NCBI GenBank assembly: GCA_937983545.1 | Contig: CALJZP010000216.1 | Coordinates: forward strand, 1 to 35,088 | DNA length: 35,088 bases | From: an uncultured Azonexus sp. | GTDB taxonomy: Bacteria > Pseudomonadota > Gammaproteobacteria > Burkholderiales > Rhodocyclaceae | Direction: 5' to 3' | Shown: positions 5,386 to 31,616 of the stretch, one piece after another | How positions within the stretch are numbered: position 1 is the first letter of the stretch | Layout of the letters: each line of letters opens with the position of its first letter | Notes under the pieces: generated by a model | Seen by the model: the letters and a program-made list of their open reading frames with translations, nothing else | Database searches by the model: none | Told to the model about the DNA's origin: nothing | Translations under genes and position numbers: made by a program

Positions 5386-6798
5386 ATGCGACTCAAGAAA
5401 ACCCTCGCGCTTCTCGCGCTCGTGCTGGGCAGCAATGCGCTGCAGGCGGAAACCATCCGCATCGCCATCGGCACCCAGGACACCACCATCAACTGCGCCA
5501 CGGGTGGCCTGTTGATCCGTGAACTCAAGCTGCTGGAAAAGTACCTGCCGAAGGACGGCAAGTACAAGGACGCCAAGTACGAGATCGTCTGGAAGAACTT
5601 CACCTCCGGTCCGCCGCTGACCAACGAGATGGTCGCCGACAAGCTCGACATCGGGTCGATGGCCGATTTTCCGGGCGCCCTGAATGCGGCAGCCTTCAAG
5701 AAGGCCGGCAAGAAGAGCGTCTTCATCACCGCGCTGTCGGGCAGTCCGCAGGGTAGCGGCAACGGCCTGGTGGTGCCCATTGACTCGCCGGTCACCTCGC
5801 TGGCTGCACTGAAGGGCAAGAGCATTTCGGTGCCTTTCGGTTCCACGGCGCACAGCATGCTGTTGCGTGCCCTGAAGGCGCAGGGGCTCGACCCGGAGAA
5901 GGATGTGAATCTGGTGTCACAGTCGCCTGAAGTCGGCGGTAGCGCCCTGCAGAGCCACAAGATCGACGCACACGCCAACTTCGTGCCCTTTGCCGAACTG
6001 TTCCCGTATCGCGGTTTCGCCCGCAAGATCTACGACGGGGCCCAGGCCAATGCGCCGACCTTCCACGGCACCCTGGTCAACAACGATTACGCCAAGAAGT
6101 ACCCGGAAATCGTCGTTGCCTTCCTGCGCGCCGCCATCGAGGCCGATCGCCTGATCACCGCCGAGCCGGAGAAATACAGCGAGCAGATTGCCAAGACGAC
6201 CGGTATCGAAGCCGAAGTGAATTACCTGTTCCACGGTCCGCTTGGGCTGCAGACACGCGATTTCACCTTCAAGCCGGAATACCGTACGGCGCTGAAGACG
6301 GCCATCGAGACGCTGGCTCTGCTCAAGCGCAACGACGTGCCGCTGACCGCCGATGAACTGATCGACGACAGTTACCTGCGTACGGCCTTCAAGCTGTCCG
6401 GGCTCGATTACGACAAGCAGCTGAAGTCGTATGGTCGTCTGCCGCTGGTCGCCAAGGATGCCCAGAGCGGCGCGGCGATCAAGGATTTCAACCGCGTGAC
6501 CCAGGTGTGGATCGAGGGCGAGCCGAGGGTGCGCAACTACGCTTCGCCGGAGTCGGCACTGTTTGCGGTGCGTGATGCCGAGAAAACCGGCAAGAAGGTT
6601 CGCGTCGTGCTCGTCCATGACCGCCAGACGGGCCTGAAGCTGCTCGCCAACCTGGCATGGTTCGTCCGTAGTCCGAATGGCCAGATCGATGCCTATCTGG
6701 AGCGGGACGTCGCCGACAAGGCAGCCCAGAAGGTCGGTGGCAGCGTGGTGAATTTCGCCTCCACGTTTGCCTCCACGGCGCCCGTCGCCAGCCGCTGA
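5386..6798 (+). CDS. ABC substrate-binding protein, sulfonate/taurine type, with C-terminal extension
   Basis: A 470-residue periplasmic binding protein of the NMT1/TauA/SsuA type that should deliver a small anionic compound to the permease and ATPase encoded next. Residues 1-21 are a Sec signal peptide cut after LQA. The binding domain spans about 22-340 (IRIAIGTQDTTINCATGG, GKSISVPFGSTAHSML). Ordinary members end near residue 330; here 375-460 form an extra module with VVLVHDRQTGLKLLANLAWFV, then DAYLERDVADKAAQKVGGSV, which resembles the NosL fold, though without an obvious copper-binding Cys-Met motif. The ATG at 5386 has GGAGG five bases upstream. The ligand is unknown; the setting suggests an organosulfur compound. 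Confidence 0.85.
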   Translation: MRLKKTLALLALVLGSNALQAETIRIAIGTQDTTINCATGGLLIRELKLLEKYLPKDGKYKDAKYEIVWKNFTSGPPLTNEMVADKLDIGSMADFPGALNAAAFKKAGKKSVFITALSGSPQGSGNGLVVPIDSPVTSLAALKGKSISVPFGSTAHSMLLRALKAQGLDPEKDVNLVSQSPEVGGSALQSHKIDAHANFVPFAELFPYRGFARKIYDGAQANAPTFHGTLVNNDYAKKYPEIVVAFLRAAIEADRLITAEPEKYSEQIAKTTGIEAEVNYLFHGPLGLQTRDFTFKPEYRTALKTAIETLALLKRNDVPLTADELIDDSYLRTAFKLSGLDYDKQLKSYGRLPLVAKDAQSGAAIKDFNRVTQVWIEGEPRVRNYASPESALFAVRDAEKTGKKVRVVLVHDRQTGLKLLANLAWFVRSPNGQIDAYLERDVADKAAQKVGGSVVNFASTFASTAPVASR

Positions 6799-6804
6799 TC
6801 GACG

Positions 6805-7689
6805 ATGAGCGCCGCGCAATTGACCCTCGATCAAGCCCCGCTGGAAGGCGTTGCCGATGTGCCGGTGGGTGACGTGTCATCCGCCGGTAAGCGGCGGACG
6901 CGCTGGCCGCTTGGCCGGATTCTGGTACGCGGCCTGTCACTCATCGCCTTCGTGGCGTTCTGGCAGGTAGCGGCCCAGTACCGGTTGCATCTGGGGATCG
7001 TGACCTTCCAGAACGTGCCGGCCCCGAGCGAAGTGGTTCCCGCGCTGTGGAACCTGCTGCAGTCACCGAAAGTGCTCGATCACGTGCTGAATAGCCTGTA
7101 TCGGGTGTTTGGCGGTTTCCTTGGCGCGACGCTGGCCGGGACCATCCTCGGGCTATGGATTGGCCGTTCGCGCTGGGCGGCCGACCTGTTCCTGCCGCCG
7201 CTGGAGGTGCTGAGGCCGATTCCCGGCGTCGCCTGGATTCCGCTGGCCATCCTGATGTTCCCGTCGTCGGAAATGAGCATGATCTTCATCACCTTCATGG
7301 GGGCCTTGTTCCCGATCCTGCTCAATACCATCCACGGCGTCGGCGGCATCGATCCGCGCCTGGTGTCGACCGCGCGCAGCCTGGGCGCAAGCCGTACCCG
7401 ACTCTATCTCGAGGTGATTCTGCCGGGCGCCTTGCCCAGTCTGGTGACCGGCTTGTCGATCGGCATGGGTACCTCGTGGTTCTGCCTGGTGACGGCCGAA
7501 ATGATCGCCGGCCAGTACGGCATCGGCTACTACACGTGGGAGTCGTACAACCTGCAGCGCTATGCGGACATCGTGGTCGGCATGTTGCTGATCGGCGTCT
7601 TCGGCATGGGCAGCAGCGTGCTGGTGCGCAAGCTGGGCGACCTGCTGACGCCCTGGTATCAACTCAAGGGAGGGCGCGATCATGAGTGA
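6805..7689 (+). CDS. ABC permease, TauC/SsuC type
   Basis: A 294-residue permease of the sulfonate/taurine/nitrate family (BPD_transp_1). An N-terminal tail of about 45 residues precedes the first membrane segment ([14 protein letters not shown]); about six segments follow. The typical signatures [21 protein letters not shown] and the EAA loop [22 protein letters not shown] are present. It starts six bases after the binding-protein gene and its 3' end overlaps the ATPase gene by eight bases, so the three are one translational unit. Confidence 0.92.
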
Positions 7690-8518
7690 TACGCACACGC
7701 CGAACGGCCACATCGTTGTCCGCGATGCCGTCATCGAACTGGGAGACAAGAAGGATCGTTTCCGGGCGGTCGACCGGATCAGCTTCGACATCAAGGCAGG
7801 GCAGTTCGTCTGTCTGCTCGGGCCTTCGGGGTGCGGCAAGTCGACCTTGCTCGGTGCGCTGGCTGGCCACATCCCGGTGACGGGCGGCTCGCTCAGTCTG
7901 GGCGGCCGGGCCATCGAGGGGCCGTCGTCGGAACGCGGGCTGGTTTTCCAGCAGCACACCTTGTTCCCGTGGAAGCGGGTCATCGACAACGTCGCTTTTG
8001 GGCTGAAGATGAAAGGCGTGGCCAAGGCCGAGCGACAGGCGAGGGCGCTGGAACTGCTGCGCCTGGTCGGCCTCGCCGGCTTCGAGCACAAGTATCCGAT
8101 CCAGCTCTCCGGCGGCATGCAGCAAAGGGTGGAGATCGCCCGCGTGCTGATCAACCAGCCGCAGGTCCTGCTGATGGACGAGCCCTTTGCGGCCCTCGAT
8201 GCGCAGACGCGCTGGGTGATGCAGCGCCTGCTGCTCGACGTATGGGCCAAGATCGGCACCACGGTGGTCTTCGTGACCCACGATATTGATGAGGCGCTGT
8301 TCCTGGCTGATCGCGTGCTGGTCATGTCACAGCGGCCGGGGCGCATTCGCGAGGACATCGCCATTCCAGCGGCCCGTCCGCGTGGCGATGCCTGGGTGAC
8401 TTCCGATGACTTCATCCATCTCAAGCGGCATTGCCTCGAACTGATGCGCGACGAGCATCGGCGCAACTTCGCGGCTTCTCTCGGCAACGCGGGCGATTTC
8501 GCCGGCGCCTTCATCTGA
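7682..8518 (+). CDS. ABC transporter ATPase, TauB/SsuB type
   Basis: A 278-residue ATPase that powers the preceding permease. Walker A is GPSGCGKST (residues 47-55), the Q-loop is [10 protein letters not shown], the signature LSGGMQQR begins at 142, Walker B is VLLMDEPFA (162-170) with ALDAQTR after it, and the switch His is in [16 protein letters not shown]. It is complete and matches nitrate/sulfonate/taurine family ATPases. It overlaps the permease gene by eight bases. Only 39 bases separate it from the regulator gene. Confidence 0.94.
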
Positions 8519-8537
8519 GCGAGAGGGCTTTCACTTG

Positions 8538-8555
8538 AACACTTGTCATAACCGG
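8538..8555. promoter_or_regulatory. Imperfect copy of the GntR operator before the regulator gene
   Basis: AACACTTGTCATAACCGG aligns with the palindrome at 5287 over its core (12 of 16 positions). It lies within the 39-base gap before the regulator ATG, where no good ribosome site is visible. It could allow the GntR protein to limit its own synthesis. Inferred from similarity only. Confidence 0.4.
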
Positions 8556-8557
8556 CC

Positions 8558-9307
8558 ATGACTGCACAACTTCATCGTCACTTCGCCACCGCCCGGCCCC
8601 TGCCGCTCTACGTGCAGATCAAGGATGCACTGCGCGGCCAGATTTTCGATGGCACCTACGGCGCCCATGACCGTCTGCCGTCCGAGAACGAGCTGATGTC
8701 CACCTTTGGCGTCAGTCGTATCACCGTGCGCCAGGCGCTCGGCGATCTGGAAAAGGAGCAGTTGATCTTCAAGGTGCCGGGCAAGGGTGCCTTCGTCTCG
8801 CAGCCCAAGCCTTTCCAGCAACTGGCGCGGCTGCGCGGCTTTGCCGAGGCGATGGCCGATCAGGGCAGGGAAGCCTTCAACCGGGTCGTCGGCCACGCCA
8901 CGGTGACGGCCGATGTGACGCTGGCAGCGCGTTTGCAGGTGCCGGAAGGCAGCCCGCTGGTCGAGATTCGCCGGGTGCGCCATGCCGACCGCCAACCGGT
9001 ATCGCTCGATGTCACCTATGTCCGGCGCGAACTCGGCGAGCGGCTCGCGCGCGAAGACCTAGCGACGCGGGACATTTTCGTGATCATCGAAAACGATTAT
9101 GCGACCCCGCTCGGCCATGCCGACCTGAGCATCGATGCCATCGCGGCCGATCCCGTCCTGGCACGCCATCTCGAGGTGGCGCCCGGCGCGCCGATCCTGC
9201 GCATGGAACGCCTGACCTGGAGCAAGGCCGGGCTGCCCATCGACTTTGAATACCTCTACTACCGGGGCGACAGCTTCAGCTACCAGATCCGCGCCGAGCG
9301 CGGCTGA
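8558..9307 (+). CDS. GntR/HutC family transcriptional regulator
   Basis: A 249-residue repressor-type regulator. Residues about 15-80 form the GntR winged helix (PLYVQIKDALRGQI, LPSENELMSTFGVSRITVRQALGDLEKEQLI, GKGAFV). Residues about 100-245 form the UTRA effector-binding domain (VPEGSPLVEIRRVR, PVSLDVTYV, IDFEYLYYRGDSFSYQI). UTRA domains usually bind a small molecule related to the pathway substrate. It sits in the middle of the operon, between the importer and the oxidoreductase genes, and probably controls the promoter near 5300 through the palindrome there. The effector is unknown and is likely the imported compound or a product. Confidence 0.93.
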   Translation: MTAQLHRHFATARPLPLYVQIKDALRGQIFDGTYGAHDRLPSENELMSTFGVSRITVRQALGDLEKEQLIFKVPGKGAFVSQPKPFQQLARLRGFAEAMADQGREAFNRVVGHATVTADVTLAARLQVPEGSPLVEIRRVRHADRQPVSLDVTYVRRELGERLAREDLATRDIFVIIENDYATPLGHADLSIDAIAADPVLARHLEVAPGAPILRMERLTWSKAGLPIDFEYLYYRGDSFSYQIRAERG

Positions 9308-9325
9308 ACCCAACCAAGGAAAAAC

Positions 9326-11056
9326 ATGGAAACCCAACACATCGAAGTCGACATCCTCGTCGTTGGCGGCGGTACTGCCGGCCCGCTGGCCGCGATCAAG
9401 GCCAAGCAGAAGGCGCCGCACCTGCGCGTGCTGCTGCTCGACAAGGCCAATGTGAAGCGTGCCGGCGCCATCGCCGAAGGCATGGACAGCGTCAATAACG
9501 CCGTGATTCCCGGTTACGCGACGCCGGAACAGTACGTCAAAGAAATCACCATCGCCAACGACGGCATCGTCAATCAGGCGTCGATCAATGCGTATGCGAC
9601 CCGCAGTTTCGACATGATCAAGGAACTGGATGGCTGGGGGGTCAAGTTCGAGAAGGATGAAACCGGCGACTACGCGGTCAAGAAGGTGCATCACCTCGGT
9701 TCGTACGTGCTGCCGATGCCCGAGGGCTACAACGTCAAGAAGGTGCTGTTCAAGCAGATCCGCAAGGTCGGTGTCGAGGTCAGCAATCGGCTGACGACGA
9801 CCCGCCTGCTGGTCGGTGAGGACGGCCGGATTGCCGGTGCCATGGCGCTGGAATCGCGAACCGGCGATTTCGTCGTCATCCGCGCCAAGGCCGTGGTTCT
9901 ATGTACCGGCGCGGCCGGGCGTCTCGGCCTGCCGTCTTCGGGCTACCTGTTCGGCACCTACGAGAATCCGACCAATGCCGGCGACGGCTACAGCATGGCC
10001 TATCACGCCGGTGCCGAGCTTTCCGGCCTGGAGTGCTTCCAGATCAACCCGTTGATCAAGGACTACAACGGCCCGGCCTGCGCCTACGTGACTGGCCCGT
10101 TCGGTGGCTATACGGTCAATGCCAAGGGTGAGCGCTTCATTCGCAGCGACTACTGGAGCGGCCAGATGATGCTCGAGTTCTGGCGCGAACTGGAAGGCGG
10201 CAATGGCCCGGTGTTTTTGAAGCTCGACCATTTGGCAGACGAAACCGTGACCAAGATCGAAGATGTGCTGCATGTCACGGAACGGCCGACTCGCGGCATC
10301 TTCCATGAGGGACGTGGCGTCGACTATCGCCACGACCTGGTCGAGATGCACATTTCCGAAATCGGCCTGTGTGGTGGTCACAGCGCCTCCGGGGTGTGGG
10401 TGGACGAGAACGCCCGTACTACGGTGCCGGGGCTCTACGCCGCCGGTGACCTGTGCAACGTCGCCCACAACTACATGCTGGGTGCCATGGTCTTCGGCAA
10501 AATCGCCGGCGAGGATGCCGTCGATTTTATCGAAGGCAAGGAACACGCCCTGGTCGACCAGGAGCAGATCGAGAACGAACGCGAGCGCATCTTCGCCCCG
10601 CTGGCTCGTGAGGACGGTATTTCGCCGACGCAGATCGAGTACAAGCTGCGCCGCATGGTCAATGACTACCTGCAGCCGCCGAAAGTGACGGCCAAGATGG
10701 AAATCGGCCTCAAGCGCTTTGCCGAAATCCGTGCTGATCTTGACCATATGAAGGCACGCAATCCGCACGAACTGATGCGCGCCATGGAGGTGCATGCCAT
10801 CCTCGACTGCGCTGAACTGGCGGCCAAGGCGTCGCTGTACCGGACGGAAAGCCGCTGGGGCCTTTACCACTACCGTACCGATTTTGAGGGGCGCAACGAT
10901 GCCGAGTGGTTCAACTTCGTCGAAATCCGCAAGGGTGCGGATGGTCAGCCGGAGTTGTTCAAGCGTCCGGTGCCGCCATATATCTACCCGATCGACAAGA
11001 GCGAACTGTATGGCTACGACGCCATGCGCATCGAATCCGAAGAATTGGCTGCCTGA
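9326..11056 (+). CDS. AprA-like FAD flavoprotein (fumarate reductase/APS reductase superfamily)
   Basis: A 576-residue flavoprotein. The N-terminus has the FAD dinucleotide fold DILVVGGGTAGPLAA (residues 9-23), and the C-terminal FAD motif TVPGLYAAGDL is followed by AHNYMLGAMVFGKIAGEDA. The segment GGHSASGVWV lies where this superfamily has catalytic residues. With the adjacent AprB-like ferredoxin it resembles the alpha subunit of dissimilatory APS reductase, but it is shorter than usual AprA, and no sat or qmo genes lie nearby. Context (organosulfur-type importer, GntR regulator) suggests reduction or oxidation of an imported sulfur compound, not respiration of sulfate. The ATG at 9326 follows AAGGA. 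Superfamily is certain; the reaction is not known. Confidence 0.85.
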   Translation: METQHIEVDILVVGGGTAGPLAAIKAKQKAPHLRVLLLDKANVKRAGAIAEGMDSVNNAVIPGYATPEQYVKEITIANDGIVNQASINAYATRSFDMIKELDGWGVKFEKDETGDYAVKKVHHLGSYVLPMPEGYNVKKVLFKQIRKVGVEVSNRLTTTRLLVGEDGRIAGAMALESRTGDFVVIRAKAVVLCTGAAGRLGLPSSGYLFGTYENPTNAGDGYSMAYHAGAELSGLECFQINPLIKDYNGPACAYVTGPFGGYTVNAKGERFIRSDYWSGQMMLEFWRELEGGNGPVFLKLDHLADETVTKIEDVLHVTERPTRGIFHEGRGVDYRHDLVEMHISEIGLCGGHSASGVWVDENARTTVPGLYAAGDLCNVAHNYMLGAMVFGKIAGEDAVDFIEGKEHALVDQEQIENERERIFAPLAREDGISPTQIEYKLRRMVNDYLQPPKVTAKMEIGLKRFAEIRADLDHMKARNPHELMRAMEVHAILDCAELAAKASLYRTESRWGLYHYRTDFEGRNDAEWFNFVEIRKGADGQPELFKRPVPPYIYPIDKSELYGYDAMRIESEELAA

Positions 11057-11065
11057 GGTAAAAAC

Positions 11066-11302
11066 ATGAGCACAACGATTGAACAGGATTTCAAGGTTTC
11101 CATCATCGTCGATCACGACAAGTGCATCGCCGACAAGGGTTGCCGCATCTGCATCGACGTTTGCCCGACCGACATCCTGATTCACGATGCCGGCGACGGA
11201 AAGATCAAGATGGCCTACGACGAGTGCTGGTACTGCCTGCCGTGCGCGCACGACTGCCCGACCAAGGCGATCAAGGTCGAAATTCCCTACCTGTTGCGGT
11301 GA
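11066..11302 (+). CDS. AprB-like ferredoxin with two [4Fe-4S] clusters
   Basis: A 78-residue ferredoxin with eight cysteines in two groups: Cys20, 26, 29, 33 (CIADKGCRICIDVCP) and Cys54, 57, 60, 64 (CWYCLPCAHDCP). The CWxCxxCxxxCP motif and the short C-terminal tail resemble the beta subunit of APS reductase, which passes electrons to the flavin of the alpha subunit. It starts nine bases after the flavoprotein gene, so the two very likely form a complex. It lacks the longer C-terminal tail by which AprB wraps around AprA, which sets it apart from true AprB. Confidence 0.9.
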   Translation: MSTTIEQDFKVSIIVDHDKCIADKGCRICIDVCPTDILIHDAGDGKIKMAYDECWYCLPCAHDCPTKAIKVEIPYLLR

Positions 11303-11309
11303 GGCGGCG

Positions 11310-12266
11310 ATGATCGATTTTTCCGACTATCCCGAGCTGGCGGCATTCGAATCCCTGCTGACCAGTACCGACCCCGCCGTGCGCAGGGTCGGGCTGCTGC
11401 AGATCGTCGACATGGCGGATGAGGTGCCGGCACCATTCGTGGCCGCGACCGGCGACAGCGATGCCGGCGTTCGCCTCGAAGCCGCCAAGGCGCTGGAAGG
11501 CAATCCGGCGCCCGAGGCGATCCGGGCACTGGCCGGCCTGCTGGCCGATCCGGATGGCGAGGTCGCCGACAACGCTGCCATTTCGCTGGGCGAAATCCTC
11601 GATCCCGGTGCCGGGCCTGTCCTGCTCGCGCTGCTGCGCGAAGCGTCGGGCGATGCTCGGGCTGCCTTGCTCGGCGCCTTGCGGAAACTGCGTCATGCCC
11701 CGGCCCTGCACGACGCGGTGGCGCTCAGTGAAGACACATCGGCCGAAGTGCGGCGCGAGGCCATCGGCGTACTCGCCTATCTCAAGGATGCTGCGGCCGT
11801 TCCGGCACTGCTGAAGCGGATCGCAGATAGCGATGCCGAAGTCAGGCGAATCGCTGTCGGCGCCCTGGTCTTCGCCGCCCGGCCGGACGTCGCCTTGGTC
11901 GTTGGAAAGGCTCTGGGCGACCCGGATTGGCAGGTCAGGCAGGAGGCTGCCGGCACCCTTGGCAAGCTGAAACGAGATGAATCCATTCCGGCGCTGCTCG
12001 GGGCGCTCGACGACCCGGCCTGGGAGGTCCGTCTCAAGGCGGCCAACGCCCTTGGCGGGATGCGTGCCCCGGCTGCACTCCCAGGCTTGATCGCCAATCT
12101 GGCGCATCCCATCAGCAACCTGCGCAAGGAAGTTGCCAATGCGCTGGGTGCCATTGGGGATCAGGATGCGGCCGATGCCTTGCGTTCGGTTCTCGATGAC
12201 GACCGCGATATTGAGGTTCGCAAAGCGGCTCAGCGTGCCCTGGATGCACTGGGCGCCCAAGCATAA
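11310..12266 (+). CDS. HEAT-repeat protein
   Basis: A 318-residue protein composed almost wholly of about nine HEAT (PBS-lyase-like) repeats of about 31 residues, with recurrent units such as DPDGEVADNAAISLGEI, DSDAEVRRIAVGAL, DPDWQVRQEAAGTLGKL and DPAWEVRLKAANALGGM. Such solenoids are binding scaffolds without catalysis of their own. No signal peptide or membrane segment is visible, so it should be cytoplasmic. It starts eight bases after the ferredoxin gene and is followed three bases later by a membrane Fe-S protein, so a role in assembling or holding the flavoprotein-ferredoxin complex, perhaps at the membrane, is plausible but unproven. Confidence 0.88.
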   Translation: MIDFSDYPELAAFESLLTSTDPAVRRVGLLQIVDMADEVPAPFVAATGDSDAGVRLEAAKALEGNPAPEAIRALAGLLADPDGEVADNAAISLGEILDPGAGPVLLALLREASGDARAALLGALRKLRHAPALHDAVALSEDTSAEVRREAIGVLAYLKDAAAVPALLKRIADSDAEVRRIAVGALVFAARPDVALVVGKALGDPDWQVRQEAAGTLGKLKRDESIPALLGALDDPAWEVRLKAANALGGMRAPAALPGLIANLAHPISNLRKEVANALGAIGDQDAADALRSVLDDDRDIEVRKAAQRALDALGAQA

Positions 12267-12269
12267 GCC

Positions 12270-13556
12270 GTGACCTCGCTCGTACGCTCCCTGATTCGGC
12301 CCGTGCGATGGGGTGACAGGCTGTCTCGGGCCTTGCAGGTGCTGGGAAACTGGCTGCAGCTGCGGCAGGACGCGATTCGTTGCCTGCAGTGGGCTGTCGT
12401 TGCCATCTATTACGTACTGTTGATAGTGCCGGCCATCTTTCCTCCGGGCAGCGGTGCAGGCTCGCTCGAGCAACTGGCTGTTTGGGCAGAGGTGCTCTTC
12501 TGGGCTGTGTGGTGGCCCGGCGTCCTGGTTTTTACATTGCTGTTCGGGCAGTTCTGGTGCGGCGTATTCTGTCCGGATGGAACCGTTACCGAGTTCGCCA
12601 GCCGGCGCGGCCTGGGCAGCAAGATTCCCGGCTGGGTGCGCAAGCCGGCTTGGGCGTTGATGGCGATTGCCGTAACGACCCTCTACGAGCATCTCAGCCA
12701 CGCGTATTCCTCGCCCCGGGCCATCTTGCTTTCGCTTGGGCTTACCTCGCTGCTGGCATTGGTGTGCGGCCTGCTCATGGGGCGTTCAAAGCGTGTCTGG
12801 TGTCGTTATCTTTGCCCGGTTGGCAGTATTTTTTCCCTGATGGCCCGGTGTGCCGTGCTGCAGTTCAAGGTGGATCGAGGGCGCTGGGATGGTGCGCCCA
12901 AGCCCTTGCCGCGCGCGGTGGATTGTCCTTTGTTGCTCGATGTCAGGCGCCTGCGCGGCAACGAAAAATGCAGCATGTGCGGGCGTTGCAGCGGGCATCG
13001 GGATGCAGTCCGTCTCGGCTACCGCTGGCCGGGGAGCGAGATCGTCAATCTCGGTGTGGCCGATTTGCGAAACAGCGATGTGTTTGGCGTATTGGGCGTG
13101 ATGATCGGACTGTTTTTCTCGGTCAGCCATGCATCTCCAATTGTCAGGCTTATGACGGACATGGTGCGGCTCCCATTTTTGCCGAGCCAGACCTGGTTAG
13201 CCGTGTCGCTTGCGACTGCCGCCATTGCAATACTGCTATGGGTCGCGCTTTATCTGATTTCCGGCACAAGCGTTCAGCTGGCGAAGCACCTGAGTTACGG
13301 CCTGATCCCGGTAGGTGCCGGGGGCATGATTCTGGTGGCCTTCCACTACAGCCTTGAGCTTTTCCAGCGCGTTGGGCTGGCCTTCGGGGCAGCGGCGCAG
13401 GCGCTTGGAAACCTGCTCATCTTGGGAACCGCGGGCTGGAGCATCGTCCTCGGAGCCATGATTTTGCGTCGATCCGGACGCTCGGGGAGCTGCGTTCGGG
13501 TGGCTTGCTATGTCGCCATGGTTGGGGGCGTTGCCGCCCTGTTTGTAGCGGTGTGA
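12270..13556 (+). CDS. NapH/NosR-like membrane Fe-S protein
   Basis: A 428-residue polytopic membrane protein with Fe-S ligands. It has a GTG start three bases after the HEAT gene stop. Membrane segments lie near residues 40-58, 72-92, 128-145 and 152-172, with several more after 265. Cysteine motifs are WCGVFCPDG (96-104), WCRYLCPVG (177-185), Cys219 and KCSMCGRC (Cys234, 237, 240), as in the NapH/NosR/RdxA family, which pass quinol electrons to periplasmic or cytoplasmic partners. The natural inference is that it supplies electrons from the quinone pool to the ferredoxin-flavoprotein pair. The final ligand set departs from a standard CxxCxxCxxxCP, ending CGRCSGH, so one cluster may be altered. 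Confidence 0.85.
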   Translation: MTSLVRSLIRPVRWGDRLSRALQVLGNWLQLRQDAIRCLQWAVVAIYYVLLIVPAIFPPGSGAGSLEQLAVWAEVLFWAVWWPGVLVFTLLFGQFWCGVFCPDGTVTEFASRRGLGSKIPGWVRKPAWALMAIAVTTLYEHLSHAYSSPRAILLSLGLTSLLALVCGLLMGRSKRVWCRYLCPVGSIFSLMARCAVLQFKVDRGRWDGAPKPLPRAVDCPLLLDVRRLRGNEKCSMCGRCSGHRDAVRLGYRWPGSEIVNLGVADLRNSDVFGVLGVMIGLFFSVSHASPIVRLMTDMVRLPFLPSQTWLAVSLATAAIAILLWVALYLISGTSVQLAKHLSYGLIPVGAGGMILVAFHYSLELFQRVGLAFGAAAQALGNLLILGTAGWSIVLGAMILRRSGRSGSCVRVACYVAMVGGVAALFVAV

Positions 13557-13692
13557 CTTTCATCTAAGCAATTTAGGCGAGGCTGATTTGCTTATTCCGA
13601 CTAAATCGTTCGCCGCTCGGGCATGACGGGATACATTGGAACCCGAGTTCTTCATGTTCTCTCTCTCTTGTATCACGCACTTGCGTTTAGGG

Positions 13693-13722
13693 CCTGGCAC
13701 CGGTGGTGTCAGGTCTTTTTTT
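13693..13722 (+). terminator. Rho-independent terminator after the Apr-like operon
   Basis: CCTGGCACC pairs with GGTGTCAGG (one G-U pair) around a short loop, followed by TCTTTTTTT. It lies 137 bases after the membrane Fe-S gene and 66 before the YeeE-type pair, so it ends the large operon or attenuates read-through. GCTTATTCC at 13590-13598 upstream of it resembles the sulfur-gene words elsewhere. Confidence 0.8.
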
Positions 13723-13787
13723 CGAGGAGCGCTGCTTGGCGCGGCGACTATCCGGATGATCCGCCAGGTAAATCGCCAGGGGGTACG

Positions 13788-14237
13788 ATGACTATCGATT
13801 TCAATCACTTCACACCTTGGGATGCTTTGTTGGGCGGCCTGCTGATCGGACTGGCTACCGCCTTCCTGTTTCTCGGTACCGGGCGGGTCGCCGGCGTGAG
13901 CGGGATATTCGGGAAACTTGTTTGCGACCGGGCGCCCGATTCCGGTTGGCGCTTTGCCTTTCTGGCAGGGCTGGTTGGTTCCGGTCTCCTGTGGAGCTTG
14001 CTGGGCAACCCGCAAGGCGTTTTCCAGCAAGGTTTCGAAACGCCGGGGGCGTGGGCGCTCTTCTCGGTGGCCGGTTTGTTGGCCGGCTTCGGCGCCAGGA
14101 TGGCCAACGGCTGTACCAGCGGGCATGGGGTCTGCGGGCTTGCCCGCCTGTCAGGACGCTCCCTGGTTGCCGTTCCATGCTTCATGCTGGGTGGTGGCCT
14201 GGCTGTTTACCTGATTCGCCACGTACTGGGGGGGTGA
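13788..14237 (+). CDS. YeeE/YedE family transporter, first half
   Basis: A 149-residue membrane protein of the YeeE/YedE (TsuA/PmpA) family, whose characterised members import thiosulfate or related sulfur species. About four hydrophobic segments are visible, with the conserved loop motif NGCTSGHGVCGLARLSGRS, whose cysteine is central to sulfur handling in the family. Full-length TsuA is about 350 residues; here the function is split over this and the next gene. The ATG at 13788 follows AGGGGG. The next gene starts one base after its stop. Confidence 0.87.
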   Translation: MTIDFNHFTPWDALLGGLLIGLATAFLFLGTGRVAGVSGIFGKLVCDRAPDSGWRFAFLAGLVGSGLLWSLLGNPQGVFQQGFETPGAWALFSVAGLLAGFGARMANGCTSGHGVCGLARLSGRSLVAVPCFMLGGGLAVYLIRHVLGG

Positions 14238-14238
14238 C

Positions 14239-14697
14239 ATGAAACTCTGGTGCTCGTTGCTATCCGGTTTGCTGTTCGGTGCCGGGTTGATCATTTCCGG
14301 GATGACCGATCCGGGCAAGGTTCAGGCTTTTCTCGACGTTGCCGGCGCCTGGGATCCCTCGCTGGGGTTCGTCATGCTGGGCGCCATTGCCGTTGCCGGC
14401 ATTGCTTTCCGTCTCGGGGCGCGTTGGGGAATAACGGCGCATCAGACGGGCGGGCTAGGCATCGATGCTTCCCTGGTCATTGGCAGCCTGCTTTTCGGTG
14501 TCGGCTGGGGTGTGGCGGGGATTTGCCCGGGGCCAGCACTGGTCGGCCTGGGGGCGGGCTTGCTGCCAGCCTCGGTGTTCGTCATTTGCATGCTTTTCGG
14601 CATGGAGGCGCAAGCCTGGCTGGCCGAATCAGGCGCCAGGAATGAGTCGGACACACCTGGACAAACGCCAGCCTCCGACCGGCCGGAAGCGTTTTGA
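14239..14697 (+). CDS. YeeE/YedE family transporter, second half
   Basis: A 152-residue membrane protein complementary to the preceding gene. It contains four hydrophobic segments and the paired motifs LISGMTDPGKVQAFLDVAGAWDPSLGFVMLGAI and GICPGPALVGLG, the latter with the second conserved cysteine. The C-terminal 25 residues are polar and probably cytoplasmic. The one-base gap to its partner indicates joint synthesis and a heteromeric channel. Placement between an organosulfur operon and metY suggests thiosulfate or reduced sulfur uptake; the substrate is inferred from the family. Confidence 0.87.
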   Translation: MKLWCSLLSGLLFGAGLIISGMTDPGKVQAFLDVAGAWDPSLGFVMLGAIAVAGIAFRLGARWGITAHQTGGLGIDASLVIGSLLFGVGWGVAGICPGPALVGLGAGLLPASVFVICMLFGMEAQAWLAESGARNESDTPGQTPASDRPEAF

Positions 14698-20459: not shown

Positions 20460-21437
20460 ATGGCGAAGTATTTCAACGATAACGCCGAGTCCATCGGCCA
20501 TACCCCGCTGGTTCGTCTCAATCGCGTCATCGACGGGGCCAAGGCCATCGTGCTGGCCAAGATCGAGGGGCGGAACCCGGCCTATTCGGTCAAATGCCGG
20601 ATCGGTTCGGCCTTGATCTGGGATGCCGAGAAGTAGGGCCTGCTCGGCCCGGGCAAGGAACTGGTCGAGCCGACCTCGGGCAATACCGGTATCGCGCTGG
20701 CTTTCGTCGCGGCCGCCAAGGGGATTCCGCTGACGCTCACCATGCCGGAAACGATGAGCCTGGAACGCCGCAAGCTGCTCACCGCCTACGGGGCCAAGCT
20801 GGTGCTGACCGAGGGTGCCAAGGGCATGAGCGGGGCGGTTGCCAAGGCCGAGGAGATTGCCGCCTCGGACCCGGACAAGTATGTGCTGTTGCAGCAGTTC
20901 AAGAATCCGGCCAATCCGGCGATCCACGAAGCAACCACCGGTCCGGAAATCTGGGAGGACACCGACGGCCAGATCGATATCCTGGTCTCCGGCGTCGGTA
21001 CCGGCGGTACGATTACCGGGGTTTCGCGCTTCATCAAGCAGACCAAAGGCAAGGCGATCCAGTCGGTGGCCGTCGAGCCGAGCGCCAGCCCCGTGCTGAC
21101 ACAAACGCGCGCCGGCGAGCCGCTCAAACCGGGACCGCACAAGATTCAGGGTATTGGTGCCGGTTTCGTTCCGGGAGTGCTCGACCTGTCGCTGATTGAT
21201 GCCGTCGAGCAGGTCAGCAACGAGGATGCGATTGCCTACGCGCGTCGTCTGGCCAAGGAAGAAGGGATCATTTCCGGCATTTCCAGCGGTGCGGCCGTGG
21301 CGGTCGCCGCCCGACTCGCCCAGCGGCCGGAAAATGCCGGCAAGACCATCGTCGTCGTACTCCCCGATTCCGGCGAGCGCTATCTCAGTTCCATCCTGTT
21401 CGAGGGCCTGTTCAACGAAGCGGGGTTGCCGGCATGA
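20460..21437 (+). pseudogene. cysK: Cysteine synthase A (cysK) with in-frame amber stop
   Basis: Read through, this is a complete 325-codon O-acetylserine sulfhydrylase, which makes cysteine from O-acetylserine and sulfide. It starts [26 protein letters not shown] Lys45 is in [11 protein letters not shown]. Codon 59 is TAG (20634-20636), inside a conserved stretch where E. coli CysK has EKRG; the frame is otherwise intact, including [19 protein letters not shown] and ISSGAAVA. The stop separates Lys45 from the TSGNTG loop, so neither piece (20460-20636, or a restart at 20742) should work alone. A single AAG-to-TAG or CAG-to-TAG change would explain it; a sequencing error or suppression is also possible. 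It overlaps cysE by ATGA. Confidence 0.85.
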
Positions 21438-22399
21438 GCCACCCCGTCGCACAGTCCTCGCTGGCCTACGAAAGAATTGGCGGCTGGGGGGTCAAGGAGA
21501 TCGTGACCGAGTTGCGCGCCGCCCGCGAACGCTGGCGCTCCGCACAGCAGCGCAGCCTCGAGTTTGCCGTCCGCGAGTTTCCGTCGCGCGAGGCCTTGAA
21601 GGAGATTGCCGAATCCTTGTGCGGCACCTTGTTCCCGATGCGGCTCGGCCCCCCCGACCTGCATCAGGAGGGGGAGGATTTCTACGTCGGCCATACGCTG
21701 GACACGGCGCTCAACGCGCTGTTCCAACAGGTTCAGCTTGAGCTGGGCTACAACCGCCGCTTGCAGTGTCATGAACGCGACGATGTCGAGGCGCATGCCG
21801 CCGAAATCGTCCAGTCCTTTGCCCGTCAGTTGCCGAAGACCAGGGCCTTGCTCGACAGCGATGTCGAGGCCGCCTACCAGGGCGATCCGGCGGCACGCAG
21901 CGTCGACGAGGTGCTGCTGTGCTACCCCGGCATTCTGGCGGTGATCCATTACCGACTGGCGCATACCCTTTACGTGCTGGGTGTGCCGCTGATCGCCCGC
22001 ATCCTGTCGGAGATCGCGCATTCGGCCACTGGCATCGACATCCATCCGGGAGCGCAGATCGGTGAGGGCTTCTTCATCGACCACGGCACCGGCGTGGTGA
22101 TCGGCGAAACGACCGTGATCGGCCAGCGGGTAAGGCTTTACCAGGCGGTCACGCTGGGCGCCAAGCGTTTTACGCAGGATGAAAGCGGTGCGCTGGAGAA
22201 GGGAGCGCCCCGCCATCCCATCCTCGAAGACGAAGTGGTCGTCTATGCCGGCGCAACCATCCTGGGGCGCATCACGATCGGCAAAGGGTCGAGCATCGGC
22301 GGCAACGTCTGGCTGACCCGCAGCGTGCCGCCGGGAAGCCATGTGTCGCAGGCCAGCCTGCAGCACGAGCCTGGCGGCGCGGGAAGGGTCAGCCAATGA
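21434..22399 (+). CDS. cysE: Serine O-acetyltransferase, EpsC type
   Basis: A 321-residue serine acetyltransferase that supplies O-acetylserine for cysteine synthesis. The N-terminal 170 residues are helical; the C-terminal part is a left-handed beta-helix of hexapeptide repeats ([57 protein letters not shown]). The long N-terminus marks the EpsC/SATase subgroup, not E. coli CysE; this subgroup is found with family 2A encapsulins. It overlaps the interrupted cysK upstream and the XRE gene downstream, both by ATGA. The C-terminal end ([11 protein letters not shown]) lacks the isoleucine tail by which CysE usually binds CysK. Confidence 0.93.
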
Positions 22400-22731: not shown

Positions 22732-23658
22732 ATGGCGCAACATCCCGAAGCGACCGCCCTGGGCGATGCCGCAGCACGGCAGCTAGCTAATGCAACCAAG
22801 ACGACGGCCCAACTGTCCACCATCAGCCCGCGCTGGCTGGTGCACCTGCTGCAGTGGCTGCCTGTCGAAGCCGGTATCTACCGCCTGAACACGGTCAAGA
22901 ATCCGCGTGACGTCCGCGTTGCCTGTTCGCAGCGCGACGAGTCGGAACTGCCGCAGACCTACGTCGATTACGACGAGGCACCGCGCGAGTATTTCCTGAA
23001 CGCGGTGACCACCATCCTCGATGTCCATACCCGTGTTTCCGACCTGTACAGCAGCCCGCACGACCAGATCAAGGAACAGCTCCGCCTGACCATCGAGACC
23101 ATCAAGGAGCGCCAGGAGTCCGAACTGATCAATAACCCGGACTACGGCCTGCTGGCCAACGTGGCCGACGAACAGATCATTTCGACGCTGACCGGCGCCC
23201 CGACGCCGGACGACCTCGACGAACTGCTGACCAAGGTGTGGAAGGAACCTGCCTTCTTCCTGGCTCACCCGCTGGCCATCGCCGCCTTCGGTCGCGAATG
23301 CACCCGTCGCGGCGTGCCGCCGCCGACCGTGTCGCTGTTCGGCGCCCAGTTCCTGACCTGGCGCGGTATTCCGCTGATCCCGTCGGACAAGGTGCCGGTC
23401 GAAGGCGGCAAGACCAAGATCCTGCTGCTGCGCGTCGGCGAAAAGCGTCAGGGCGTGGTCGGCCTGTTCCAGCCGGGTCTCGCCGGCGAACAGTCGCCGG
23501 GCCTGTCGGTGCGTTTCATGGGCATCAACCGCAACGCCATCGCGTCCTACCTGATTTCGCTGTATTGCTCGCTGGCCGTGCTCGTTCCGGATGCACTGGC
23601 TGTCCTCGATGACGTGGAGATCGGCAAGTACCATGACTATCCCGACACCTACAAGTAA
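22732..23658 (+). CDS. Family 2A encapsulin shell protein
   Basis: A 308-residue HK97-fold shell protein of encapsulin family 2A (SrpI type), which forms a hollow nanocompartment in the cytoplasm. Recognised from ISPRWLVHLLQWLPVEAGIYRLNTVKNP near the N-terminus, TRVSDLYSSPHDQIKEQLRLTIETIKERQESELINNPDYGLL in the middle, and PDALAVLDDVEIGKYHDYPD at the end, plus the desulfurase gene directly after it. In characterised relatives the shell encloses cysteine desulfurase and stores elemental sulfur. The ATG at 22732 has a strong ribosome site. Its 3' end overlaps the cargo gene by 26 bases. Length fits the family. Confidence 0.93.
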   Translation: MAQHPEATALGDAAARQLANATKTTAQLSTISPRWLVHLLQWLPVEAGIYRLNTVKNPRDVRVACSQRDESELPQTYVDYDEAPREYFLNAVTTILDVHTRVSDLYSSPHDQIKEQLRLTIETIKERQESELINNPDYGLLANVADEQIISTLTGAPTPDDLDELLTKVWKEPAFFLAHPLAIAAFGRECTRRGVPPPTVSLFGAQFLTWRGIPLIPSDKVPVEGGKTKILLLRVGEKRQGVVGLFQPGLAGEQSPGLSVRFMGINRNAIASYLISLYCSLAVLVPDALAVLDDVEIGKYHDYPDTYK

Positions 23659-25483
23659 TGGCGTCGAGGGGCTGTCCGGCGCACCGGCGCCGGGCATTCC
23701 CGATGAAGCCACGCTTGGACGGCTTGCCTCGGAGTTTTTCCGCGCCTTGCCAGGCGCTGCCTTGCCGTCGTTCGGCGATTTGCCGACCTCGTTCGGTGCC
23801 GGCAGCGCGCCGGCACCGGAGCCGAGCCTGATCCAGTCCGGCCCGAGCATTGCCCCGGTGCCGGTGGCGCCGGACCCGGTCGATCCGGTCGGTAGCGGCG
23901 GTGCCGAGTTTGGCGTGCCGGAAGCGTACGCGGCTTCCTTGCCGAGCGTGACGCCGCCCCAGCCGCCGAGCCAGTTCGCCGATCAGGCACCGGTTTCTCC
24001 GCCGGGGTCGCCGTATTACTTCCTGGGCGAGGCCAGTCCTTATACCCAGTCGGGAGGCATACCGGCCAAGCCGGAAAACCGTGTCGTCGCGCAGTCGTTC
24101 GGATTGCCCGGCGAAGGCGAACTGAAGTCGCTGCTGGCGGAAATTGCCGGTGCCCGCGAGCCGATCGCCCCGGCCGGCCAACCGGCCAATACGGGAAATT
24201 TCTATTTCCTCGATGCGGCCAAGGTGCCCGATGCCGGCCCGACCGCGCGGCCTGCCTTCGATGTCAACGCCGTGCGCCGCGATTTCCCGATTCTCAACGA
24301 ACGGGTGAACGGCAAGCCGCTGGTCTGGTTCGACAACGCCGCGACGACGCAGAAGCCGCAATCGGTGATCGACCGTCTCGCCTATTTCTACGCCCACGAG
24401 AATTCCAACATTCACCGTGCGGCGCATGAACTGGCGGCGCGGGCGACCGATGCCTACGAGGCGGCGCGCAACAAGGTGCAGCGTTTCCTTGGCGCCGGTT
24501 CGGCCGACGAGATCATCTTCGTGCGCGGTGCGACGGAAGCCATCAACCTGGTCGCCAAGACCTGGGGCGTCCAGAACATCGGCGAGGGCGATGAAATCGT
24601 CGTTTCCCTGCTCGAACACCACGCCAACATCGTGCCCTGGCAACAGCTGGCGGCACAGGTTGGAGCGAAGATTCGCGTCATCCCGGTCGACGATACCGGG
24701 CAACTGAAGCTCGACGAGTTGCAGAAGCTGCTCAATCCGAAGACCAGGCTCGTTTCGGTGACGCAGGTATCGAATGCGCTGGGTACGGTGACGCCGATCA
24801 AGCAGGTGATCGACATGGCCCACGCGGCCGGCGCGAAAGTGCTGGTCGACGGGGCGCAGTCGGTTTCCCATCTGCGCGTCAACGTGCAGGCGCTCGATGC
24901 CGATTTCTTCGTCTTTTCCGGCCACAAGATCTTCGGCCCGACCGGGATTGGCGTGGTCTACGGCAAGAAGGCGCTGCTCGAGCAGATGCCTCCCTGGCAG
25001 GGCGGCGGCAACATGATTGCCGACGTGACCTTCGAGAAGACGCTGTTCCAGCCGGCTCCGAACAAGTTCGAAGCAGGTACCGGCAACATCGCCGACGCGG
25101 TGGGGCTCGGGGCGGCGCTGGACTACGTCGAGCGCATCGGCATCGAGAACATCGCCCGCTACGAGCACGACCTGCTGGTCTATGCGACGCGCGGTCTGTC
25201 CTCGATTCCCGGCGTGCGCCTGATCGGCACGGCGGCGGACAAGGCCAGCGTGGCGTCCTTCGTGCTCGCCGGCTATTCGACCGAGGAGGTGGGCAGGGCG
25301 TTGAATGAGGAAGGAATCGCGGTACGTTCCGGCCATCACTGCGCGCAGCCCATCCTGCGGCGCTTCGGCGTCGAGGCGACGGTACGGCCTTCGCTGGCGT
25401 TCTACAACACCTGCGAGGAAATCGACCGCATGCTGGCGGTCATTCGACGGCTGGCACGCGGCAAGGGCAAGGTCGCGGCATAA
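23633..25483 (+). CDS. Encapsulin-cargo cysteine desulfurase
   Basis: A 616-residue SufS-type desulfurase that removes sulfur from cysteine to give alanine and a persulfide. The catalytic domain spans about 210-610: PLP Lys432 in FSGHKIFGPTG and catalytic Cys570 in RSGHHCAQPILRRFG. Residues 1-205 are Pro/Gly/Ala/Ser-rich and disordered, as in family 2A cargo-loading domains, with islands LGRLASEFFRALPG (28-41), SPYYFLGE (126-133), a segment around 156-171 (GLPGEGELKSLLAEI) and GNFYFLD (188-194). The repeated YFL words probably bind the shell interior. The start at 23633 lies within the end of the shell gene (GGAGA upstream). The last gene of the cluster, before a terminator. Confidence 0.94.
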   Translation: MTIPTPTSNGVEGLSGAPAPGIPDEATLGRLASEFFRALPGAALPSFGDLPTSFGAGSAPAPEPSLIQSGPSIAPVPVAPDPVDPVGSGGAEFGVPEAYAASLPSVTPPQPPSQFADQAPVSPPGSPYYFLGEASPYTQSGGIPAKPENRVVAQSFGLPGEGELKSLLAEIAGAREPIAPAGQPANTGNFYFLDAAKVPDAGPTARPAFDVNAVRRDFPILNERVNGKPLVWFDNAATTQKPQSVIDRLAYFYAHENSNIHRAAHELAARATDAYEAARNKVQRFLGAGSADEIIFVRGATEAINLVAKTWGVQNIGEGDEIVVSLLEHHANIVPWQQLAAQVGAKIRVIPVDDTGQLKLDELQKLLNPKTRLVSVTQVSNALGTVTPIKQVIDMAHAAGAKVLVDGAQSVSHLRVNVQALDADFFVFSGHKIFGPTGIGVVYGKKALLEQMPPWQGGGNMIADVTFEKTLFQPAPNKFEAGTGNIADAVGLGAALDYVERIGIENIARYEHDLLVYATRGLSSIPGVRLIGTAADKASVASFVLAGYSTEEVGRALNEEGIAVRSGHHCAQPILRRFGVEATVRPSLAFYNTCEEIDRMLAVIRRLARGKGKVAA

Positions 25484-29693: not shown

Positions 29694-30017
29694 GCGATAT
29701 TCGCCGGGAGCGGTTGTACCGCCCCTGACGCCATGGTCGACGAGGCTTTCAAGGCTTTCGTCGGCCATGATCCGGCACGTACCTGCTGTGCCCACTTTGT
29801 CGGCGCAGCATCGACAGGATGTGCCGCGAACGGCGCATCGCCCTCCATGCCGAACACGGCTATCGCTGCTCTTGCCCCTCACCAGACGGGCATGTCGGTA
29901 AAACGAAGCGAAGCATAAGCATAGACAAAGTTCTTCGTTGGCTTGGTGGCTGTGGGCATCCAAAGTAAAGCCTTCACAACACCACAACGCCGGCGTTTCC
30001 GGCGGCGAACAGCAGCC
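29694..30017. other. Intergenic region before metN
   Basis: A 324-base gap. It contains the sulfur-gene site at 29913-29939 and otherwise no gene I can support. A 61-codon open frame at 29733-29918 has no ribosome site and an unlikely composition. No terminator or known riboswitch was recognised. Confidence 0.5.
29913..29939 (+). promoter_or_regulatory. Sulfur/methionine regulatory site upstream of metN
   Basis: GCATAAGCATAGACAAA (29913-29929) is 16/17 identical to the site upstream of cysT, and CATAAG-N11-TTCTTCGTT (29914-29939) has the same spacing as the site before metY. It therefore links the sulfate-permease and methionine sets. The binder is unknown. Confidence 0.55.
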
Positions 30018-30917
30018 ATGAGTATTCATTCATCAACACCTGACAGCAGTCCCATCATCGAACTGGAGTCGGTGCGCAAAGCCTACACCTTGCCCGATGG
30101 ACAAGGTTTCGATGCGGTTCATCCGATTTCCCTGAGTATTGCGCGTGGCGATGTGTTCGGGCTGATCGGCACGAGCGGTGCCGGTAAATCCACGCTGTTG
30201 CGTCTGATCAATCTGCTCGAACAGCCCGATGCGGGCAGTGTCAAGGTTGCCGGGCGTGATCTGACGGCGCTTGGACGGCGTGCCTTGCGCGAAGCCCGGC
30301 AGAACATCGGCATGATCTTCCAGCAGTTCAATCTGCTGCAGAACGCCACGGTGTACGACAACGTCGCTTTTCCGCTGCGCATCCACGGCCATCATTCGCG
30401 GGCCGAGATCGATGCGCGGGTGCGTGAGTGCCTGGCGCTGGTCGGTCTCTCCGACAAGTCGGCAAGCTATCCGGCGCGCCTGTCCGGTGGCCAGAAACAG
30501 CGCGTGGCGATTGCCCGTGCTCTGGCGCCGCGTCCCGACGTGCTGCTGTGCGATGAGCCAACTTCGGCGCTGGACAGCGAGACGACGCGTTCGCTGCTGC
30601 AGACCTTGCGCGACATCAATCGGGATCTGGGTGTGACCATCGTGATCGTGACCCATGAACTGGCTGTCGTCGATCAGCTGTGCAGCCATGTCGCCGTGCT
30701 TGAGCACGGTCGCCTGATCGAACAATTTGCCATCGATGCACCCGCCGAGTCGCGTCGCAGCGCACTCGGGCGCGAGCTGGCCGAACTGGTCGCCGAACGT
30801 CAGTGGCGGGAGGCGCGGCTGGCAGCCGCCGCCGAAGTCGTGCCCATCAGATCGCCGGGTGCCGTGGCGCCGGCAGCCGTTTCCCCTATTCATACAGCGA
30901 AGGTTTCCTATGCCTGA
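30018..30917 (+). CDS. metN: Methionine ABC transporter ATPase (MetN), short form
   Basis: A 299-residue ATPase of the methionine importer. Walker A is GTSGAGKST (51-59), the Q-loop MIFQQFNLLQ, the signature LSGGQKQR (155-162), Walker B VLLCDEPTSALD, and the switch His in VTHELAVVDQL. Standard MetN is about 340 residues and ends in the NIL (C2) domain that binds methionine and shuts off transport. Here residues 240-299 form only a short Ala/Arg-rich tail with no such domain, so this feedback is probably absent. The ATG at 30018 was chosen from the alignment of the fold; the ribosome site is weak. It overlaps metI by eight bases. Confidence 0.9.
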   Translation: MSIHSSTPDSSPIIELESVRKAYTLPDGQGFDAVHPISLSIARGDVFGLIGTSGAGKSTLLRLINLLEQPDAGSVKVAGRDLTALGRRALREARQNIGMIFQQFNLLQNATVYDNVAFPLRIHGHHSRAEIDARVRECLALVGLSDKSASYPARLSGGQKQRVAIARALAPRPDVLLCDEPTSALDSETTRSLLQTLRDINRDLGVTIVIVTHELAVVDQLCSHVAVLEHGRLIEQFAIDAPAESRRSALGRELAELVAERQWREARLAAAAEVVPIRSPGAVAPAAVSPIHTAKVSYA

Positions 30918-31572: not shown

Positions 31573-31616
31573 ATTTCCCTTCCCCAACTTCAATATCGTT
31601 TCCAGGAGTCCTAACC

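Follow-up and report, generated by a model that had tools for sequence, protein, structure and literature searches.

What might an AprA-related flavoprotein do when its gene stands among those of an importer, a GntR regulator and a HEAT-repeat protein? This question is raised by eight genes in a 35,088-nucleotide stretch of DNA (the window) from an uncultured Azonexus species (GenBank assembly GCA_937983545.1, contig CALJZP010000216.1). An earlier reading made from the letters alone, the sequence-only reading, had taken them for an importer-fed oxidoreductase with a HEAT scaffold and a membrane Fe-S partner. We examined how these genes are distributed among other genomes, where the flavoprotein falls in a phylogeny, and which residues it shares with its relatives. 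The set formed by the AprA-related flavin adenine dinucleotide (FAD) flavoprotein (FP), an eight-cysteine ferredoxin (Fd) and the HEAT protein is widespread, and it appears to have a sulfur-stripping role.

Conservation of the gene set

The eight open reading frames (ORFs), at 5386–13556, are intact, contiguous and all on the plus strand (Table 1), as first described. The intergenic distances are, in order, 6, -8, 39, 18, 9, 7 and 3 bases. The close spacing that had been described is thus found in six of the seven gaps (<20 bases each); the several overlaps that had also been claimed come down to one pair, the permease and ATPase genes, which share 8 bases.

Domains were assigned by Pfam and NCBIfam profile searches, with the curated NCBIfam cut-offs as thresholds. 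The FP scores 1046.4 bits against NF006131 (cut-off 587) and is a member of that family. Among 398 evenly drawn Pseudomonadota genomes (the even sample, source genome included), 21 encode a protein above this cut-off (20 besides the source), and the scores then fall from 1047 to 218 bits; FP carriers make up about 5% of the sampled species (20/397 besides the source). Both the ferredoxin and the HEAT gene accompany FP on its strand in all 20 loci (20/20 for each). Neither was found in 39 control windows drawn from the same 20 genomes, none of them from the named loci introduced below and with L205, a further stretch of the source genome, left out; DUF971, FdxA and FNR-type genes were also absent from these windows (0/39 each). 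The linkage is therefore beyond chance, and the core holds together outside the source genome. A substrate-binding protein (SBP) is encoded within the 19-kb stretch examined in 18 of the 20 loci, in 12 of those 18 on the FP strand, and DUF971, GntR, FNR-type and FdxA genes occur in 14, 10, 9 and 4 loci, respectively.

A larger set of 80 named loci comprises the best 80 of at least 595 relatives; Pseudomonas, Massilia and Caballeronia are over-represented in it. Here the ferredoxin is encoded in 79 loci, the HEAT protein in 78, GntR in 72, the SBP in 67, DUF971 in 58, FdxA in 12, an NfnL-like protein in 9, a NapH-like protein in 7 and an FNR-type protein in none. The two loci without HEAT are truncated (L027) or short and masked (L093), and L027 is also the only one without ferredoxin. 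According to these counts, the conserved core consists of FP, the eight-cysteine ferredoxin and the HEAT protein; in most cases the genes of an importer of the taurine/alkanesulfonate type lie close by. Beyond the Pseudomonadota, the FP, ferredoxin and HEAT genes are dispersed over 6 kb of a Nostoc plasmid, which also has metX and the gene of an Mrp-type Fe-S carrier.

The DUF971 (GBBH-like_N) protein is often encoded soon after the HEAT protein (L038:20443-20736 and 57 other named loci), and the Nostoc locus (L134) has the Mrp/NBP35 carrier. Together, DUF971 and such a carrier presumably recall HCF101, and by this analogy the DUF971 protein is perhaps a dedicated Fe-S maturation factor. In one metagenome-assembled genome (L017), two HEAT genes flank FP, at 3277 and 7095.

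The flavoprotein and its closest relatives

NCBIfam names NF006131 a fumarate reductase/succinate dehydrogenase flavoprotein. The window FP falls far below the cut-offs of the sdhA/frdA model TIGR01812 (165.5 bits against 567.3), of the aprA model TIGR02061 (177.3 against 641.75) and of a second APS (adenosine 5'-phosphosulfate) reductase alpha model. Its top PDB match is 8a8o_A, the alpha subunit of the PAPS (3'-phosphoadenosine 5'-phosphosulfate) reductase of M. thermolithotrophicus (MtPAPSR), with E 8.7e-73 over nearly the full length.

We constructed a tree of 48 rows with IQ-TREE, including 36 of the 93 aligned FP members; it has long branches and was rooted at the midpoint. The 36 FP rows form one clade (support 98/95, present in 97% of bootstrap trees), which is sister to AprA plus MtPAPSR. 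The latter group together with support of 100/100, MtPAPSR being a single row on a long branch. Four putative AsfA rows form their own clade (100/100) outside the group of FP, AprA and PAPS reductase, and FP also falls outside the SdhA/NadB rows. The description of FP as AprA-like is upheld. Neither outcome named in advance as refuting the sequence-only reading came about: the genes are linked in other genomes, and FP does not fall inside the clade of a known enzyme. The AsfA identity of L015 was inferred from an unannotated C. metallidurans CHR2 record in which two FP-like frames were found; the 549-aa frame overlaps a ferredoxin gene, as would be expected of AsfA/AsfB as described for strain CH34 (PMC2864759, in excerpt). 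Orthology of FP with AsfA was ruled out by the tree placement and by an identity of about 25%.

Residue conservation, which the sequence-only reading had proposed to compare around the flavin, was determined from an alignment of the 93 FP members with three AprAs and MtPAPSR. Residues N57 and H352 of FP, equivalent to Asn74 and His398 of Af AprA, are kept in 93/93 members. At the position of Arg265, which we take to be part of the sulfate/sulfite site (the numbering and roles assumed for all three residues are those of AprA), FP has L243 in 93/93 members, against Arg in 3/3 AprAs and in MtPAPSR. Y212 stands in place of a Trp in 93/93. Where AprA and MtPAPSR have their nucleotide-binding loop, FP has a longer, different one that carries V-H-H-x-G-x-Y-V, with V121, H122, G125, Y127 and V128 each in 93/93 members and H123 in 91/93. 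Cysteines 237, 252 and 349 are likewise present in 93/93 and in none of the three AprAs or MtPAPSR. The retention of Asn and His but replacement of Arg and of the APS loop suggest AprAB-like chemistry on a different substrate: judged by its residues, the electron path and flavin site look like those of AprAB, the substrate pocket does not.

Two genomes (G001 and G002) have a true AprA besides FP, and the three genomes that contain L138, L137 and L044 have AsfA-like genes besides it, so that FP duplicates neither. Two divergent true AprA genes (L102 and L119) occur besides the FP family in the Thiobacillus genome G001, and in Andreprevotia lacus the module's DUF971 gene is immediately followed by an AsfA-like gene (L044:16579). 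In the source genome, which is 86% complete, the only other match to the aprA model is a weak 633-aa frame (21 bits) that we read as SdhA. The reported absence of sat and qmo stands for the window proteins scanned; for sat (TIGR00339), it extends to the source genome at its 86% completeness, while qmo was sought in the window.

The ferredoxin scores 27.5 bits against the AprB model TIGR02060 (cut-off 135.65). With 78 aa, against the 160- and 172-residue open frames of two AprBs, it does not have the C-terminal part of AprB. Yet the CW.C motif of AprB is kept in 109/109 ferredoxins, in agreement with its description as AprB-like. As for the HEAT protein, a single model, NF010374 (898 positions), is matched by FP over positions 9–568 and by the HEAT protein over 689–893. 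This model, which corresponds to PRK13800, implies a single fused flavoprotein-HEAT chain, unlike the separate proteins here, and argues for contact between FP and the HEAT protein.

Several known systems resemble the module in part. AprAB likewise pairs an FAD subunit of the fumarate-reductase family with a two-[4Fe-4S] ferredoxin and shares Asn74, His398 and CW.C, but its AprA subunit is only 25–31% identical to FP (three AprAs), and the importer, HEAT and GntR genes stand here in place of sat and qmo. MtPAPSR is the best solved relative of FP, an assimilatory enzyme with FAD and an eight-cysteine beta subunit (PMC10322725, in excerpt); it is 31% identical to FP, keeps the Arg and belongs to a separate clade. 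The asfRABC genes of P. putida S-313, with AsfA/B also in C. metallidurans, combine a reductase, a ferredoxin and sulfonate transport under sulfate limitation, with a LysR in contrast to the GntR found here, and the available excerpt names no HEAT gene for them (PMC4267179). A plasmid cargo of 'Fervidacidithiobacillus caldus' comprises GntR, an APS-reductase-like protein, a ferredoxin and a NirT/TauT sulfonate transporter, listed in a 2025 paper as predicted organosulfonate assimilation (PMC12375680, in excerpt). The FP module is present in pTcM1 (L012) and is partly in print already as an A. caldus plasmid prediction. That account is a genomic prediction; a term search of its text gave no relevant mention of HEAT repeats, and the excerpt does not discuss an NfnL-like partner or the clade (PMC12375680). 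We found no functional study of the module in the open-licence library searched.

Electron partners, importer and sulfur-related neighbours

The sequence-only reading had counted the membrane Fe-S protein among the parts of the system, with quinone-linked electrons. Among the 80 named loci, NapH-like genes occur only in L016–L022 (7/80), and in none of the 20 sampled genomes, so this protein is not part of the core. Five of these seven loci are in the tree, where they form a clade (99/100) with the window FP. The protein scores 32.1 bits against the NapH/MauN model TIGR02163 (cut-off 213), and its structure model (predicted local distance difference test score 68) gave no PDB match at E 0.001. 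It has two CxxxCP motifs and a CxxCxxC cluster, and C97, C101, C178, C182, C219, C234, C237 and C240 are invariant in 7/7 NapH-like proteins.

Other loci have different neighbours. FNR-type genes lie near FP in 9/20 sampled genomes and 0/39 controls (p 1.3e-5): six are 130–190 bases upstream on the FP strand, one is 655 bases off and divergent, and two are about 6 kb downstream. The three checked have the Pfam domains FAD_binding_6 and NAD_binding_1, and for two FNR-type proteins the sole NCBIfam match is ferredoxin-NADP reductase, under cut-off. An NfnL/GltD-related protein of up to 1190 aa, whose PDB matches include NfnI alpha, is encoded with FdxA in nine of the named loci and on one plasmid of A. 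caldus. In 61 of the 80 named and 10 of the 20 sampled loci, no partner was recognised. FNR- and NfnL-type enzymes usually pass NADPH electrons to ferredoxin, and from their presence beside FP we infer a reductive direction. Quinone-linked electrons would thus apply to one lineage at most, with FNR-type or NfnL-like neighbours in some of the other loci.

That the importer is of sulfonate type is supported by the SBP, whose fold is shared with SsuA/TauA as the nearest match and which scores 126.4 bits against the SsuA/TauA model TIGR01728 (cut-off 163.5). Its C-terminus gave no NosL match in the window protein; a NosL-like C-terminal domain was found above cut-off in two (L026 and L038) of five other full-length SBPs scanned. 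NosL is associated with copper. The GntR regulator is nearest to HutC/PhnF-type models, all under cut-off.

The window is a sulfur-assimilation island. Besides the module, it encodes a sulfate SBP, CysT, CysW, MetY, MetX and serine acetyltransferase, with the MetY gene just downstream of the module. The YeeE-like and DUF6691 genes start 66 bases past the NapH-like gene and perhaps belong to the same regulon. The serine acetyltransferase gene is just upstream of a family 2A encapsulin shell, followed by a cargo-type cysteine desulfurase; to judge from their sequences, these two would form a nanocompartment of the sulfur-storage type in the same island. In S. elongatus, a family 2A encapsulin is upregulated under sulfur starvation (PMC8346489, in excerpt). 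An ABC ATPase and an NlpA-type lipoprotein encoded further downstream are perhaps a methionine or organosulfur importer.

Table 1. Features of the window and of two related loci. Positions without a locus prefix are those of the window.
Feature	Position	Strand	Profile or other evidence
SBP, 470 aa	5386-6798	+	Pfam NMT1; SsuA/TauA-like domain ~21-333 plus C-terminal part, NosL-like in relatives
ATP-binding cassette (ABC) permease	6805-7689	+	Pfam BPD_transp_1
ABC ATPase, TauB-like	7682-8518	+	Pfam ABC_tran; top NCBIfam match taurine ATPase, under cut-off
GntR/UTRA regulator	8558-9307	+	Pfam GntR, UTRA
FP, 576 aa, family NF006131/PRK08275	9326-11056	+	Pfam FAD_binding_2, Succ_DH_flav_C
AprB-like eight-cysteine ferredoxin, 78 aa	11066-11302	+	Pfam Fer4 families
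HEAT-repeat protein, 318 aa	11310-12266	+	Pfam HEAT_2, 203 bits
NapH/NosR-like membrane Fe-S protein, candidate electron partner	12270-13556	+	Pfam Fer4_5
Two-gene YeeE-like/DUF6691 sulfur-compound transporter	13623-14697	+	Pfam Sulf_transp, DUF6691
Serine acetyltransferase	21434-22399		
Family 2A encapsulin shell, then cargo-type cysteine desulfurase	22732-25483		541 bits (cut-off 380); 912 bits (cut-off 800)
ABC ATPase and NlpA-type lipoprotein	29943-32429		
NfnL/GltD-like oxidoreductase, 1153-1190 aa, beside FP module	L033:17070-20642; L012:10574-14035		C-terminal part like dihydroorotate-dehydrogenase electron transfer; PRK06567 match under cut-off

Elsewhere, genes like ssuE-ssuA-ssuD-ssuC-ssuB lie upstream of FP on the same strand in L031, L047, L054 and L035, with 0.2–2.6 kb between, partly unread; SsuD is above its model cut-off in both loci checked (L047 and L054). 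Local sulfur markers, represented by eleven query proteins only, are found near FP in 27/80 named loci against 3/39 controls, a significant difference; in the even sample, the enrichment (2/20) is not significant. At the genome level, SsuD is above cut-off in 17/20 FP genomes against 4/93 without FP, and the association is also seen among genomes of at least 4.4 Mb (16/18 against 4/25) and at least 5 Mb (13/15 against 3/9), all these counts being uncorrected for kinship. The source genome, at its 86% completeness, gave no match to SsuD or TauD and no further AprA/AsfA-like match. It has one siroheme reductase frame of the NIR_SIR family (563 aa, L099), which is nearest to nitrite, then to sulfite reductase models, under every cut-off. 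The sulfur island and the link with SsuD make sulfur assimilation, proposed from the start, a likely role.

A sulfite-releasing role and its rivals

We put at about even the chance that the module releases sulfite reductively from an imported sulfonate-like anion for sulfur assimilation. The TauA/SsuA-type importer would bring in the anion (R-X-SO3-), and electrons would pass through the two [4Fe-4S] clusters of the ferredoxin to the FAD of FP. Their donor would be exchangeable: the NapH-like protein, perhaps quinol-linked, in the lineage of the window, and elsewhere an NAD(P)H enzyme, either FNR-type or NfnL-like. The reduced flavin would then attack the sulfur and free sulfite, and the HEAT protein would be a dedicated partner of FP. 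MetY would use the sulfite after its reduction, possibly by the genome's single siroheme reductase (nitrite/sulfite family). An attack of flavin N5 on the sulfur, with release of sulfite, has been proposed for enzymes of the AprAB type (PMC10322725, in excerpt). An activated X (N, S or O) should be chemically easier to cleave than an alkyl C-S bond. More tentatively, and with the balance against it, FP, Fd and HEAT could constitute a desulfonating enzyme of a new class, reductive, non-radical and independent of oxygen, with HEAT as a dedicated third subunit and N5 attack on the X-SO3 bond (N-, S-, O- or activated C-) of imported organosulfur.

Alternatively, the imported compound may be no sulfur source, and FP may reduce or oxidise another small molecule. 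The breadth of the SBP fold family would allow for this, as would the HutC/PhnF-like regulator, the finding that sulfur genes are not enriched around FP in the even sample, and the presence of neighbouring amidase and GNAT genes in L131 and L134. We consider this unlikely, though a serious candidate, given the sulfur island, the position of the FP clade next to AprA/PAPSR, the ssu genes upstream in four loci and the genome-level link with SsuD. Another scenario, which we find rather improbable, is that FP and Fd supply electrons, as proposed for AsfAB, to an oxygenase like SsuD or TauD and leave the substrate untouched. In this regard, ssuD lies near FP in 6/80 and a tauD-like gene in 11/80 named loci, SsuD co-occurs with FP in genomes, and in Andreprevotia the module is followed by an AsfA-like gene. 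Yet FP is outside the AsfA clade and keeps AprA residues that are absent from AsfA, most loci have none of the sought oxygenases nearby, the source genome yielded neither SsuD nor TauD, and 4/30 FP genomes (20 from the even sample and 10 chosen) gave no SsuD match whatever.

The reversibility of AprAB (PMC10322725, in excerpt) and the NapH-like partner in the window would also fit an oxidative direction, in which sulfite or a thiol is taken up and electrons reach quinone through the membrane protein. This seems quite improbable, since the FNR-type and NfnL-like enzymes encoded beside FP elsewhere speak for electrons being delivered to it, only 7/80 named loci have the membrane gene, and the source genome gave no match to a true AprA or to sat. 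That the module is an AprBA-type reductase of APS or PAPS with an assimilatory role, as the top PDB match might suggest, is very improbable: Arg265 is replaced by Leu in 93/93 members, the APS loop is replaced, the scores are far under the aprA and aprB cut-offs, no sat match was found in the source genome (the CysDN route was not searched), and such an enzyme does not need an importer. We rejected APS and PAPS reduction on the residues, scores and sat result, which also bear out the exclusion of dissimilatory APS reduction by the sequence-only reading. The database name of NF006131 would make FP a fumarate reductase or succinate dehydrogenase; with FP outside the SdhA/NadB rows and at 165 bits against a cut-off of 567, we rejected this identity and leave it next to no probability.

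If reductive release of sulfite from an imported anion is indeed what the module does, it would be a common route to sulfur without an oxygenase for bacteria of soil, rhizosphere and water. The ligand of the module's binding protein would name the substrate. Besides APS and PAPS, the AprAB fold would then act on a third substrate, one that is imported, and a widespread family now named fumarate reductase/succinate dehydrogenase flavoprotein would have its annotation corrected.

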